45,717 nt of DNA. It comes from Candidatus Nitrosopumilus sp. Its GTDB lineage: Archaea; Thermoproteota; Nitrososphaeria; Nitrososphaerales; Nitrosopumilaceae. The stretch is taken from NCBI GenBank assembly GCA_029864335.1, contig JAOTTS010000017.1, forward strand, positions 1-45,717, read 5' to 3'. The notes beneath the pieces are model-generated. The model searched no databases, was not told where the DNA came from, and saw only the letters and a list, made by a program, of their open reading frames with translations. Position numbers and translations under genes: made by a program. Of the stretch, positions 14,063-34,831 are shown one piece after another (the stretch's first letter is position 1; each line of letters opens with the position of its first letter).

Positions 14063-14091
14063 GCTGACAGTCCAACGCATGGACTGTCAGC
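14063..14091. terminator. Perfect 11-bp hairpin between pepF and the convergent membrane gene
   Basis: GCTGACAGTCC (14063-14073) and GGACTGTCAGC (14081-14091) are perfectly complementary around a seven-base loop, 16 bases past the pepF stop. GGGG and CCCC flank it, and GTTC-CCC-CGAAC follows. Stem strength far exceeds its surroundings. The site between convergent genes suits a bidirectional terminator, but there is no U-tract; a small structured RNA is the alternative. Confidence 0.5.
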
Positions 14092-17018: not shown

Positions 17019-17093
17019 GCCAATGTAGCTCAGCCTGGTTAGAGCAGCTGATTTGTAATCAGCAGGTCGTGGGTTCGGATCCCGTCATTGGCT
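17019..17093 (+). tRNA. tRNA-Thr (anticodon TGT)
   Basis: A complete cloverleaf: acceptor GCCAATG pairs with CATTGGC, D-arm GCTC/GAGC with the GG pair in its loop, anticodon arm GCTGA-TTTGTAA-TCAGC giving anticodon TGT, and T-arm GTGGG-TTCGGAT-CCCGT. The discriminator base is T, as expected for archaeal tRNA-Thr. There is no intron and CCA is not encoded. T-loop position 58 is G where A is usual. A short T-run follows directly and probably ends transcription. Reads ACA codons and possibly other threonine ACN codons. Confidence 0.95.
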
Positions 17094-17167: not shown

Positions 17168-17974
17168 ATGAGTTCTGAAGAATCTGGATTTAGTCAAAAT
17201 GATAAAGAAAATGTAGTTGTAAAAAAATCAACATTTAATGGATTAATAATTAGTTTAATTATAATAGTTGGAATTGCAGCATTTTTTGCTGGATCATATG
17301 TTTCAAATCTAAATTCTAATCAAATTTCAGACCAAGATCTTGATGACGCAATTGCCAAATTAGAACTCAAAATATTACAAAATCAATTACCTACAAAACA
17401 ACCAACTCCCCAAGTAAAAATTTCAGCAGATAATGATCCAATTATCGGAAATCCTGATGCTCCAATTACAATAATTGAATTTTCAGATTTTCAATGCCCA
17501 TTTTGTGCTAGATTCCATATCCAAACACTTCCATTAATTCTTGAACAATACATTGAGCAGGGAAAGGTGAAATTAGTTTTCAGGGATTTCCCTATTCAGA
17601 GCATTCACCCTAATGCATTACCTGCATCTGTTGCAGCAGAATGTGCAAATGAGCAAGGAAAATTCAGAGAAATGCATGACATGTTATTTGACAATCAAAA
17701 TCAATGGAACAAACAAGAAACTGTTGATGCACTTTCTTTGTTTAGTAGTTATGCCATCGAGATTCAATTAGATCAAGAAACATTTGATTCATGCCTTATT
17801 AGTGGAAAATATATCGAAGAGATTAGAAAAGATCTTGATGATGGAAGAGATTACGGAGTATCAGGTACGCCTGGATTTTTTGTAGGAAATGAAGTAATAG
17901 GATTTGTGGAACTTAAAGGTGCACAACCATTTGATAGTTTTAAAAAAATTATTGATGCGCAGCTAGAGGCATAA
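17168..17974 (+). CDS. Membrane-anchored DsbA-like thiol oxidoreductase
   Basis: A cytosolic N-terminal segment is followed by one membrane helix (LIISLIIIVGIAAFFAG, residues about 27-45), then a coiled linker and an extracytoplasmic thioredoxin fold. The redox centre CPFC is at residues 110-113 in EFSDFQCPFCARFH, and the cis-Pro loop is SGTPGFFVG. The FRDFPIQSIHPNA stretch is typical of the DsbA/BdbD group. It should oxidise or shuffle disulfides in exported proteins. Several paralogues are normal for ammonia-oxidising archaea, which rely on many secreted copper proteins. Transcribed from its own promoter after tRNA-Thr. Confidence 0.85.
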   Translation: MSSEESGFSQNDKENVVVKKSTFNGLIISLIIIVGIAAFFAGSYVSNLNSNQISDQDLDDAIAKLELKILQNQLPTKQPTPQVKISADNDPIIGNPDAPITIIEFSDFQCPFCARFHIQTLPLILEQYIEQGKVKLVFRDFPIQSIHPNALPASVAAECANEQGKFREMHDMLFDNQNQWNKQETVDALSLFSSYAIEIQLDQETFDSCLISGKYIEEIRKDLDDGRDYGVSGTPGFFVGNEVIGFVELKGAQPFDSFKKIIDAQLEA

Positions 17975-18024
17975 AAAATAACAAGCGTTTATTAGACCTT
18001 CAGCGACACTATAATTATCGGAAT

Positions 18025-18061
18025 AATGACGTCTAAGCAATGAGCTTTTCGTCATTGCTTA
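18025..18061 (+). promoter_or_regulatory. Alternative hairpins just upstream of the helicase start codon
   Basis: TAAGCAATGA (18034-18043) pairs perfectly with TCATTGCTTA (18052-18061) around an eight-base loop, ending 15 bases before the helicase ATG. A second pairing, AATGACG (18025-18031) with CGTCATT (18050-18056), uses the same 3' arm and excludes the first. Two mutually exclusive stems ahead of an RNA helicase gene could act as an RNA switch. A terminator for the upstream DsbA gene (stop at 17974) is the simpler alternative. Confidence 0.45.
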
Positions 18062-18076
18062 AGAGAAGAAAATAAA

Positions 18077-19393
18077 ATGACAAAATTTACAGAATTAGGA
18101 TTAAAAGATGAGATACTAAAAGGAATTACTGATCAAGGATTTGATGAAGCATTTCCAATTCAAGAGGCAGTTATTCCTGTACTTCTTTCAGGAAGAGATG
18201 TTGTTGGTCAAGCACATACAGGTTCTGGAAAAACTGCAGCCTTTGCATTATCAATGCTGCAAGAGATACAACCAAAGAACGGCATTCAGGGACTGATTAT
18301 GGCACCTACTAGAGAACTTGCAATGCAAATTAGTGATGAAATTAAAAAATTCGGAAAATACACAGGAATCAAAGTAGCGACAATTTATGGAGGACAAGGA
18401 ATGGGAATTCAGTTAGATGCTCTTCATAGAGGAGTAGAGATTGTTGTAGCAACTCCAGGTAGATTAATTGATCACCTCAAAAGAGGTTCAATTGAACTTA
18501 GAGACATTACCCACATTGTACTTGATGAAGCAGATACAATGCTTGACATGGGATTCGTAGATGATATTTCATTTATTTTAGATTTAGCGCCAGAAGATAG
18601 AGTAATGTCATTGTATTCAGCAACAATGCCTACTGAAATCCTAAGATTATCAGAGGAATATCTCAATAATCCAAAACAATTCCTTTTGGATGCAGATGAT
18701 CTCAGTGGAGAGGGAATTGATCAATCATATTTGGTAATTAAAGACCGAGACAAATTCAAGTATTTGATTGATTTTATCAAACAAACTAAAGGTCAATCTA
18801 TTGTATTTTGTTCAACAAAATATAGAACCAGAGATGTAGCAAAATTCCTGCATCAAGAGAAATACAATGCAGTGGCAATTGAGGGAGACATGTCACAGCA
18901 CAGAAGGGAGCAATCTATGGGTAAATTCAGAAGTGGAAAAGCTGATATTCTTGTTGCAACAGATGTAGCATCAAGAGGAATTGATGTTCCAAGAGTAGAA
19001 TTAGTAGTAAATTACGATGTACCAAATCAAGAGTTGGCATACTTTCATAGAATTGGAAGAACAGCCAGAGCTGGAGCTCTTGGCAAAGCAATCACATTTG
19101 TATCATATTCATCAGTAGGTGATTGGAATCTCATTAAACGCCAAATCAAAGTTCCTCTCAGAGATTTAAATCAAGAAATGGGAATTCAAATATCCATCCC
19201 TGACCCCCTAAAAAGACAAACACCTTCAAGAAGATATGGCGGTCAATCAAGATCCAACTATTCCAGAGGAGGACGTTCTGGAGGATATGGAAGATCTGAT
19301 AGAAACAGAAATCCCAGAGATGACAGAGGGGGAAGAAAGAGGTACGGTGACAATGATAATAAAAACAGCTACGGTGGACGTAGTAGATGGTAA
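18077..19393 (+). CDS. DEAD-box RNA helicase with Gly/Arg-rich tail
   Basis: An ATP-dependent RNA unwinding enzyme. All core motifs are in order: Q-motif (FPIQEAVIP), Walker A AHTGSGKT, PTRELA, TPGR, DEAD, SAT, and in the second RecA domain HRIGRTARAG. After the ~370-residue core the tail is rich in Arg, Gly, Tyr, Ser and Asn (RGGRSGGYGRS and similar), a low-complexity RNA-binding tail like those of cold-shock helicases. Likely roles are ribosome assembly and RNA unfolding. The 5' region holds competing hairpins, compatible with autoregulation. Start ATG 18077. Confidence 0.95.
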   Translation: MTKFTELGLKDEILKGITDQGFDEAFPIQEAVIPVLLSGRDVVGQAHTGSGKTAAFALSMLQEIQPKNGIQGLIMAPTRELAMQISDEIKKFGKYTGIKVATIYGGQGMGIQLDALHRGVEIVVATPGRLIDHLKRGSIELRDITHIVLDEADTMLDMGFVDDISFILDLAPEDRVMSLYSATMPTEILRLSEEYLNNPKQFLLDADDLSGEGIDQSYLVIKDRDKFKYLIDFIKQTKGQSIVFCSTKYRTRDVAKFLHQEKYNAVAIEGDMSQHRREQSMGKFRSGKADILVATDVASRGIDVPRVELVVNYDVPNQELAYFHRIGRTARAGALGKAITFVSYSSVGDWNLIKRQIKVPLRDLNQEMGIQISIPDPLKRQTPSRRYGGQSRSNYSRGGRSGGYGRSDRNRNPRDDRGGRKRYGDNDNKNSYGGRSRW

Positions 19394-33843: not shown

Positions 33844-33871
33844 TTTCATAATCCTATCTAAGATTATGAAA
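33844..33871. repeat. Inverted repeat, copy 1 (TTTCATAATC ... GATTATGAAA)
   Basis: Arms TTTCATAATC (33844-33853) and GATTATGAAA (33862-33871) are perfectly complementary with an eight-base spacer starting CT. Identical arms and spacer length recur at 34332-34359. It begins 17 bases after the cyclase remnant ends. Confidence 0.7.
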
Positions 33872-34331: not shown

Positions 34332-34359
34332 TTTCATAATCCTGATGGAGATTATGAAA
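34332..34359. repeat. Inverted repeat, copy 2 (TTTCATAATC ... GATTATGAAA)
   Basis: Same ten-base arms and eight-base spacer as copy 1. Here the stem extends by CTAA (34328-34331) with TTAG (34361-34364) past a one-base bulge, giving 14 pairs. It ends about 55 bases before the phasin-like gene start, so it could also be a regulatory hairpin or operator for that gene. Confidence 0.7.
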
Positions 34360-34414: not shown

Positions 34415-34831
34415 ATGAGTAAAACTACAGACGAATCAAAAGATATTTTTACATTCTGTAAAAAAAATACAGAGGAATTTTTTAATGAACTTGAAAAATC
34501 TTCTCCAGTTTACCATCAAATAGCAACAGACATTCAAAAAAGCTATCTTGAGGCATGGAAGAATGTGATTAATTCGTCTATTGCTTTAGAACAAGAATAT
34601 GCTGTAAAATCTGGTCTGAATGTCAGTATGCCTGAAGAAACAATGAAAGCAATTCATAATATGATGGAGAGAACAAGTAATGCATATCAAAATCAAAATA
34701 AATTAGTTTTTGATTCTACTGAAACATCAAAAAAAGTATTTGATATATTCAGTGAAAACACCAAGATACTTGCTTCGCTGAATAAAAATATGATGGAATT
34801 GATGGCATCGAGTATGAAAAAATATACATAA
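34415..34831 (+). CDS. Phasin-like helical protein (138 aa)
   Basis: Soluble, all-helical protein without Cys, starting ATG 34415. Amphipathic helices with the spacing of phasins are seen: KNTEEFFNELEKSSPVYHQI, DIQKSYLEAWKNVINSSIAL, then MKAIHNMMERTSNAYQNQNKL and a final helix ending MELMASSMKKY. Phasins coat polyhydroxyalkanoate granules, and some ammonia-oxidising archaea carry PHA synthase genes; none is in this window. The assignment rests on helix pattern and composition only. The gene is intact although its neighbours on both sides are remnants. Confidence 0.4.
   Translation: MSKTTDESKDIFTFCKKNTEEFFNELEKSSPVYHQIATDIQKSYLEAWKNVINSSIALEQEYAVKSGLNVSMPEETMKAIHNMMERTSNAYQNQNKLVFDSTETSKKVFDIFSENTKILASLNKNMMELMASSMKKYT

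Follow-up and report, generated by a model that had tools for sequence, protein, structure and literature searches.

The helicase locus and two overlapping stems

The window (the whole stretch of DNA analysed, 45,717 nucleotides) carries on its forward strand a gene at 18077-19393 in which both the Pfam DEAD and Helicase_C domains are present and whose nearest NCBIfam model is CshA, with a score under the cut-off of that model (426 of 646 bits). The leader of this gene has as its upstream neighbour the gene of a thioredoxin-fold/DsbA-like protein (17168-17974, referred to as dsbA). The features of the region are as follows.

17980-17998, + strand: promoter box AACAAGCGTTTATTAGACC with the TATA-like TTTATTA at 17988-17994; identity 0.95 in 28 loci
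18017-18021, + strand: putative transcription start region; conserved sequence starts about 26 nt past the centre of the TATA-like box
18017-18076, + strand: conserved 5' leader of the helicase mRNA; present at 28 of 28 same-genus orthologue loci; 164 of 250 family genomes match model R1
18025-18031, + strand: arm A of the family-wide lower helix, pairing with arm C; 99.1% of A:C cells paired, 8 compensating double changes
18034-18043, + strand: arm B of the 10-bp stem; core of 7 pairs complete in 94 of 116 leaders
18035-18038, + strand: 5' arm of the apical stem, AAGC; with A:C enforced, 114 of 116 leaders have a stem of 3 bp or more
18039-18043, + strand: apical loop AAUGA, also within arm B; the usual loop, UUCG in seven leaders of genus g34
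18044-18047, + strand: 3' arm of the apical stem, GCUU; from folds with A:C enforced
18050-18056, + strand: arm C of the lower helix, common to the competing stem; from pairing counts and changes on the tree
18052-18061, + strand: 3' arm of the 10-bp stem, overlapping C; from the sequence and pairing counts over 116 leaders
18062-18076, + strand: purine-rich stretch ahead of the start codon; window folds touch its first bases (to 18064), 18065-18076 open
18077-19393, + strand: gene of a 438-aa DEAD-box RNA helicase with a CshA/DbpA-like core and a tail rich in RGG

An earlier note on this DNA had described two hairpins ahead of the helicase gene, and its geometry is correct in every respect. 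AATGACG (18025-18031) pairs perfectly with CGTCATT (18050-18056) in a stem of 7 bp, and TAAGCAATGA (18034-18043) pairs perfectly with TCATTGCTTA (18052-18061) in a stem of 10 bp with an 8-nt loop, which ends 15 nt before the ATG at 18077. Both compete for one 3' arm, and since positions 18052-18056 are common to both, the two stems are mutually exclusive. They are called A:C and B:C, respectively, in what follows.

Perfect stems of at least 10 bp with a loop of 3-12 nt occur four times in the whole window against a mean of 1.6 in 20 dinucleotide shuffles, and one such 10-bp hairpin somewhere in 45.7 kb is ordinary. Within the 102-nt gap between dsbA and the helicase gene, a perfect stem of this length was held by 3 of 2000 shuffles. 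The isolated 46-nt element folds at -12.4 kcal/mol (z -2.91), an energy as low as which was reached by none of 200 shuffles, while folding of the 161-nt stretch around the hairpins is unremarkable (z -0.50) and two of 12 leaders fold just slightly better than shuffles (z -1.60 and -1.06). At the level of sequence, the reality of the hairpin element is, in our view, decided by conservation. The sole match to Rfam 15 in the window at the gathering threshold is a tRNA-Thr; on both strands of 17900-18150, the best sub-threshold match scored 17.2 bits against a threshold of 55.

Conservation within the genus and a promoter box ahead of the leader

A helicase orthologue (more than 700 bits) was found in 28 of the 37 same-genus genomes searched, and the leader is present at all 28 loci. 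Across these loci the mean pairwise identity is 0.86 in the leader, 0.98 in arm A and 0.95 in arm C, and it is 0.40 in the spacer ahead of the leader. For comparison, the same 28 loci give 0.48 for the gap between the tRNA and dsbA, 0.70 for the gap behind the helicase gene and 0.60 for third codon positions of the helicase.

The order of elements is the promoter box AACAAGCGTTTATTAGACC, an unconserved spacer (17999-18016, 18 nt in the window) and the leader. From the first base of the AGCG within the box to the start of the conserved leader there are 31-35 bp, as expected for a TATA-like box with a transcription start at about 18017-18021. A leaderless helicase transcript starting at or after 18062 therefore appears unlikely, because the box keeps this distance to the leader across a spacer that is not itself conserved. 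The box is conserved over 19 bp, which is longer than a TATA box needs, and has one copy in its own genome with up to three mismatches allowed; on account of both its length and its single copy, a dedicated regulator acting at the box is possible. The hairpin core likewise has no second copy in its own genome at three or fewer mismatches.

The promoter box also bears on the alternative offered in the earlier note, that the stem terminates the upstream dsbA gene; this reading, or that of an attenuator, would suit a first stem that starts 51 nt past the dsbA stop. However, the stem is followed by a purine-rich stretch instead of a T-run and is missing from the terminator scan, the promoter box separates the leader from dsbA, and several genera retain the leader where tRNA-Thr is the upstream neighbour instead of dsbA. 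We consider a terminator or attenuator barely credible.

A single hairpin is conserved across the family

The comparison across the family was based on 76 distinct leaders obtained from 101 fetched copies, some of them from the same genome, with identical leaders counted once; a larger set of 116 leaders includes 40 more from 49 further copies. One leader, L052, was dropped from the pattern set as it is cut by a contig end.

In the 76 distinct leaders, 99.1% of the cells of the A:C helix hold a standard pair, against 71.4% or less in slid controls. Two of its pairs have changed on both sides, a number reached by one of 500 shuffles, with four such cells, reached by none. When the 116 leaders were folded together with RNAalifold, A:C alone was chosen, with 9 pairs, 5 of which show compensating changes. 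Counted by arms, each of pairs 1-7 forms in 112 to 116 of the 116 leaders. Inside the enforced A:C helix, 114 of the 116 leaders form an apical stem of 3 bp or more, mostly AAGC, AGGC or GGGC closing an AAUGA loop with GCUU; other forms are AGCC/GGCU and GAGGU/ACCUU, and AGG-UUCG-CUU is found in seven leaders of g34, which we take to be Nitrosopelagicus. The median A:C energy per genus ranges from -10.1 to -17.3 kcal/mol at 37°C. The 10-bp stem, favoured earlier as the main structure, was set aside as the main fold after constrained folds of the 116 leaders and RNAalifold; the family-wide fold is instead the 7-bp A:C helix with its apical stem.

Changes in the helix were then placed on a helicase DNA tree made by a quick method from 135 of 136 rows and 297 columns (L162, with a short coding stretch, was left out), in which 48 of 132 inner branches are weak and L175 and L176 carry a long-branch warning. 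Parsimony pair counts cover 133 of the 135 rows, 18 of them with hand-assigned arms A and C that lean towards pairing. Two leaders of genus g41, L314 and L315, have no recognisable arm A, so that none could be named, and they were left out of the pair counts and of the B:C complementarity test described below.

On this tree, the nine pairs of A:C underwent 8 double changes that kept pairing, against 0.13 per comparison in 23 controls: two at pair 3, one each at pairs 4, 5 and 6, and three at pair 8. In the core (pairs 3-7), 30 events kept pairing and 3 broke it. Over all nine pairs, 42 events kept and 32 broke pairing, a fraction (0.57) no better than that of the control (0.58) because the end pairs 1, 2, 8 and 9 break often. 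The earlier note would have been contradicted by a lack of covariation in either stem; covariation is present in the A:C core, with its compensating double changes on the gene tree.

The kind of change is also informative. Single changes away from a Watson-Crick pair gave 21 G-U pairs, 1 A-C and 1 transversion in pairs 3-7 (one-sided p 5e-6 for the G-U bias under equal odds), 25, 5 and 5 in pairs 1-7, and 29, 7 and 9 in pairs 1-9 (p 1.6e-4). The preference of core changes for G-U over A-C indicates selection as RNA and argues against a DNA operator, in which a transcription regulator would bind an AATGAC-like motif present three times. AATGA is indeed common to A, B and the complement of C, and the promoter box is also highly conserved, but a ratio of G-U to A-C of 21 to 1 is not expected of DNA, and one leader (L026) changes A and C and not B. 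An operator is therefore a very improbable explanation. In terms of comparative evidence, we regard it as demonstrated that the A:C hairpin exists, that it is selected as RNA and that it belongs with one gene.

The competing stem is not kept in all genera

The earlier note proposed that the two hairpins form a switch, in which an exchange between A:C and B:C on the shared arm sets helicase expression. Several results are in line with such an exchange. The B:C core has all seven pairs in 94 of the 116 leaders, and in the 76 distinct leaders 92.0% of B:C is paired against a shuffled mean of 91.2% (4 of 500 shuffles reached this; 11 of 500 for the covariation score). Complementarity between the middle of the leader and the region of C was scored in 134 leaders and exceeds that of shuffles (p ≤ 0.05) in 108 of them; 17 of 21 genera have one such leader or more. 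In one clade (L079, L097), arms A, B and C have changed together. B:C-type pairing also occurs in new letters in genera g23 and g41, as CCGGC:GCCGG in L312 (p 0.025) and as CGTGC:GCACG in L313 (p 0.02); in L314 and L315 it takes the form GTGTGATG:CGTCGCAC, as judged by eye and left unscored. In the window itself the two folds have nearly equal predicted energies (-12.7 kcal/mol for A:C and -12.9 for B:C), B:C being the lowest by 0.2 kcal/mol.

However, the apical hairpin within the A:C fold accounts for much of arm B, and the repeated AAUGA and self-complementary GC make part of the B:C complementarity automatic. None of the 16 leaders of g34 and g35 passed the complementarity test, and L311 of g23 failed it as well (p 0.255). 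At 37°C, A:C is predicted below B:C in 110 of the 116 leaders by a median of 4.3 kcal/mol, a gap that is exaggerated because B:C was imposed even on leaders in which it is broken. On the tree, B:C shows just 2 double changes, with 45 events keeping and 24 breaking pairing (0.65, against 0.50 in a control of 25 comparisons), and its double changes in the 76 leaders are within the range of pair shuffles (118 of 500). In L026, where A and C have changed together, B:C is broken.

B:C thus stands as a competing fold that is possible in most genera, and a conserved two-state switch is not established because B:C is lost in some genera. Based on these comparisons, B:C is taken as an auxiliary or lineage-specific fold that would not define the element. 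A true two-state switch would be a special case of the explanation we prefer, with which its likelihood overlaps, and we hold it to be possible though doubtful. In the window, where the modelled folds are close to isoenergetic, A:C and B:C could act in this way.

The leader accompanies the helicase gene in most genera of the family

A model of the leader, R1, was built on the 76 distinct leaders, and matches were counted at E ≤ 0.1. R1 matches 164 of 250 genomes in 18 of 22 genera of the window's family, a large family of ammonia-oxidising archaea, at a single place per genome in 158 and at two places in 6 of the 164; the second places in G148, G011 and G072 were counted from the model match alone. 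A simpler pattern (promoter and arm A) was found in 97 of the 250 genomes, belonging to 4 of the 22 genera. The helicase start was read behind the leader in 153 of the 164 genomes, namely the 97 of the pattern and two further sets of 48 and 8. Of the 49 loci read for the second set, 48 matched the helicase by tblastn; at the last, L156, which is cut by a contig end, the start of the helicase gene is visible by eye. The structured leader is accordingly specific to the helicase gene, with a single R1 place in 158 of 164 genomes and a position before the helicase in 153 of 164. The link to this gene made in the earlier note was borne out both at the 28 of 28 same-genus loci and in the 153 of 164 R1 genomes read.

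The helicase itself (E ≤ 1e-90) is found in 205 of the 250 family genomes and in 21 of the 22 genera. Three genera with a helicase and no R1 match (g35, g23 and g41) have diverged forms of the leader as seen by eye. Outside the family, R1 was run on 12 helicase leaders belonging to eight families of the same order and gave no match at E ≤ 10; this negative carries little weight, since 11 of 14 diverged leaders from within the family escaped R1 as well. Three same-genus genomes, 91-96% complete (G021, G032 and G033), have no helicase orthologue at E ≤ 1e-90; G021 and G032 have no leader match and G033 has a weak one (E 0.0118), which is probably due to chance because this genome lacks the orthologue. 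Gene and leader may have been lost together in some lineages, or may be absent from the assemblies.

The leader pattern, when spelled out, matches at least 119 stretches, of which 80 are listed (44 archaeal and 36 other). Among the matches listed, 42 of the 44 archaeal records have a helicase start within 80 nt by tblastn and L202 and L241, the remaining two, are cut off by the end of the contig, while none of the 36 non-archaeal records has a helicase start by tblastn. One of these 42, a contig titled Nitrososphaeraceae, which is another family (L199:1-160), opens with the leader and a helicase start that resembles that of genus g31; a mis-binned contig or a transfer to another family is possible. 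A Spirochaetaceae MAG and a Comamonadaceae MAG (L186, L197, L205, L240, L246 and others) have many matches to the palindromic pattern and no helicase, apparently an unrelated repeat.

Open reading frame, ribosome site and decay

The leader contains an ATG at 18027 that opens a frame of five codons, and a translated upstream peptide would be favoured by the presence of this ATG and frame in 70 of the 116 leaders. Against it, the ATG is lost in 5 of the 116, and a further 41 leaders have a frame that stops at a different place or meets no stop before the leader ends, which makes a peptide highly improbable.

The core helix ends 20 nt before the helicase ATG, and no masking of a ribosome site is seen in the main fold. 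With A:C enforced, 91 of the 116 folds have no pair in the last 15 nt of the leader row and 25 are paired at some base there; with B:C enforced, the numbers are 101 and 15. As a pattern for the 16S 3' end is absent from the genome's own assembly, masking was judged without a located ribosome site. The U-rich loop might in principle pair with the purine stretch, a reading that was rejected: the own combinations gave -3.6 kcal/mol and swapped ones -3.9 (p 0.86, 18 genera). A k-turn consists of tandem sheared G-A pairs beside a 3-nt bulge; by inspection, no tandem G-A was found in the alignment or the folds, and the internal loop is mostly U-rich. The neighbouring genes offer no hint of a ligand for a metabolite riboswitch.

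A hairpin at the 5' end might do no more than protect the mRNA from 5' decay, with no sensing role. The hairpin starts about 8 nt from the putative 5' end and has a consensus stem of about 14 bp, and in g34 the apical loop has been swapped for UUCG, all of which would agree with a stabiliser. Yet the conservation extends beyond pairing, to the 5' GGAAUAAUGACG and in most leaders to the AAUGA loop, and both this and the restriction to one gene exceed the needs of a generic stabiliser. We judge this explanation unlikely, less so than the operator, peptide or terminator.

A candidate structured leader for control of the helicase mRNA

Taken together, the comparisons suggest that the leader is probably a cis-acting structured 5'UTR hairpin that controls the helicase mRNA. 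Of the regulation by a structured leader envisaged in the earlier note, a structured, conserved and covarying mRNA leader is retained, but a conserved two-state switch is not. The main fold would consist of the lower helix A:C of 7-10 bp, a small internal loop and an apical stem, usually of 3-4 bp and usually closed by AAUGA, starting about 8 nt from the presumed 5' end, with the core helix ending 20 nt before the AUG. Such a hairpin could set helicase output via translation or via the life of the mRNA. The most likely input would be the helicase or another RNA-binding protein that binds or opens the hairpin, with temperature as a plausible one, and B:C would act as an additional competing fold in most genera, although not in all. 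More speculatively, the helicase might itself drive the exchange between A:C and B:C on arm C, so that the cell gauges how much RNA-unwinding capacity is free and adjusts its production of helicase, mainly in the cold; this is rather improbable.

Control of helicase output in cis is inferred from three kinds of precedent, namely a long leader of an archaeal helicase, autoregulation by a helicase, and an archaeal protein that binds its own leader. The DEAD-box helicase TK0306 of Thermococcus kodakarensis has a 159-nt 5'UTR according to the accessible text of PMC4247193, and a title cited there terms it cold inducible. The two leaders are alike in preceding an archaeal DEAD-box helicase as a long 5'UTR, whereas the TK0306 leader, as described in that text, holds a tRNA-Lys and the present one has about 60 nt and no tRNA; the likeness is one of description, with no sequence relation claimed. 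In Synechocystis, the helicase crhR adjusts its own expression to temperature, as reported from a mutant in the accessible part of PMC3485376; unlike the present archaeal helicase, crhR is bacterial. L7Ae of Sulfolobus acidocaldarius is controlled via a k-turn in its own leader (PMC5539422, accessible text), in contrast to the present hairpin, which by inspection has no k-turn pattern. For Methanolobus psychrophilus, stem-loops in temperature-selected 5'UTRs were predicted to mask the ribosome site and were proposed to act in cold adaptation (PMC5378194, accessible text); this system works via alternative start sites, whereas the present main fold shows no masking, judged without a located ribosome site. 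In sediment relatives, a cold-shock DEAD-box protein CshA, possibly the counterpart of the present helicase, is reported from all members of one group and tied to low temperature in the accessible text of PMC8397731.

The element combines covariation, an occurrence in 18 of 22 genera by model and in 3 more by eye within a widespread group, and a restriction to one gene. Its exact arms can be mutated, which makes archaeal post-transcriptional control of an RNA helicase directly testable. To our knowledge, archaea have yielded few examples of structured mRNA leaders. Among the titles listed by a search of open-licence papers, there was no structured leader for these organisms, nor this leader. 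A word search of the accessible main text of a survey of 104 structured RNAs (PMC2864571) gave no hits for Nitrosopumilus, Cenarchaeum, Crenarchaeota or helicase.

Other features of the window and related loci

The tRNA-Thr (TGT) of the window lies at 17019-17093. A scan of 48 helicase loci detected a tRNA-Thr in 20, of which 17 have it within about 250 nt before the leader; its absence from a locus says little because most loci hold just about 250 nt of upstream sequence. An upstream tRNA-Thr is an odd parallel to the tRNA within the T. kodakarensis helicase leader described in the accessible text of PMC4247193.

Elsewhere in the window, a near-identical pair of inverted repeats, TTTCATAATC-N8-GATTATGAAA, lies at 33844-33871 and 34332-34359, 488 bp apart, with 0.01 such pairs expected by chance. 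The second ends 55 bp before an ORF at 34415, and from its sequence the pair looks like the operator pair of a regulator. A perfect 12-bp hairpin, GCTGACAGTCCA/TGGACTGTCAGC, is located at 14063-14091 between two convergent ORFs.
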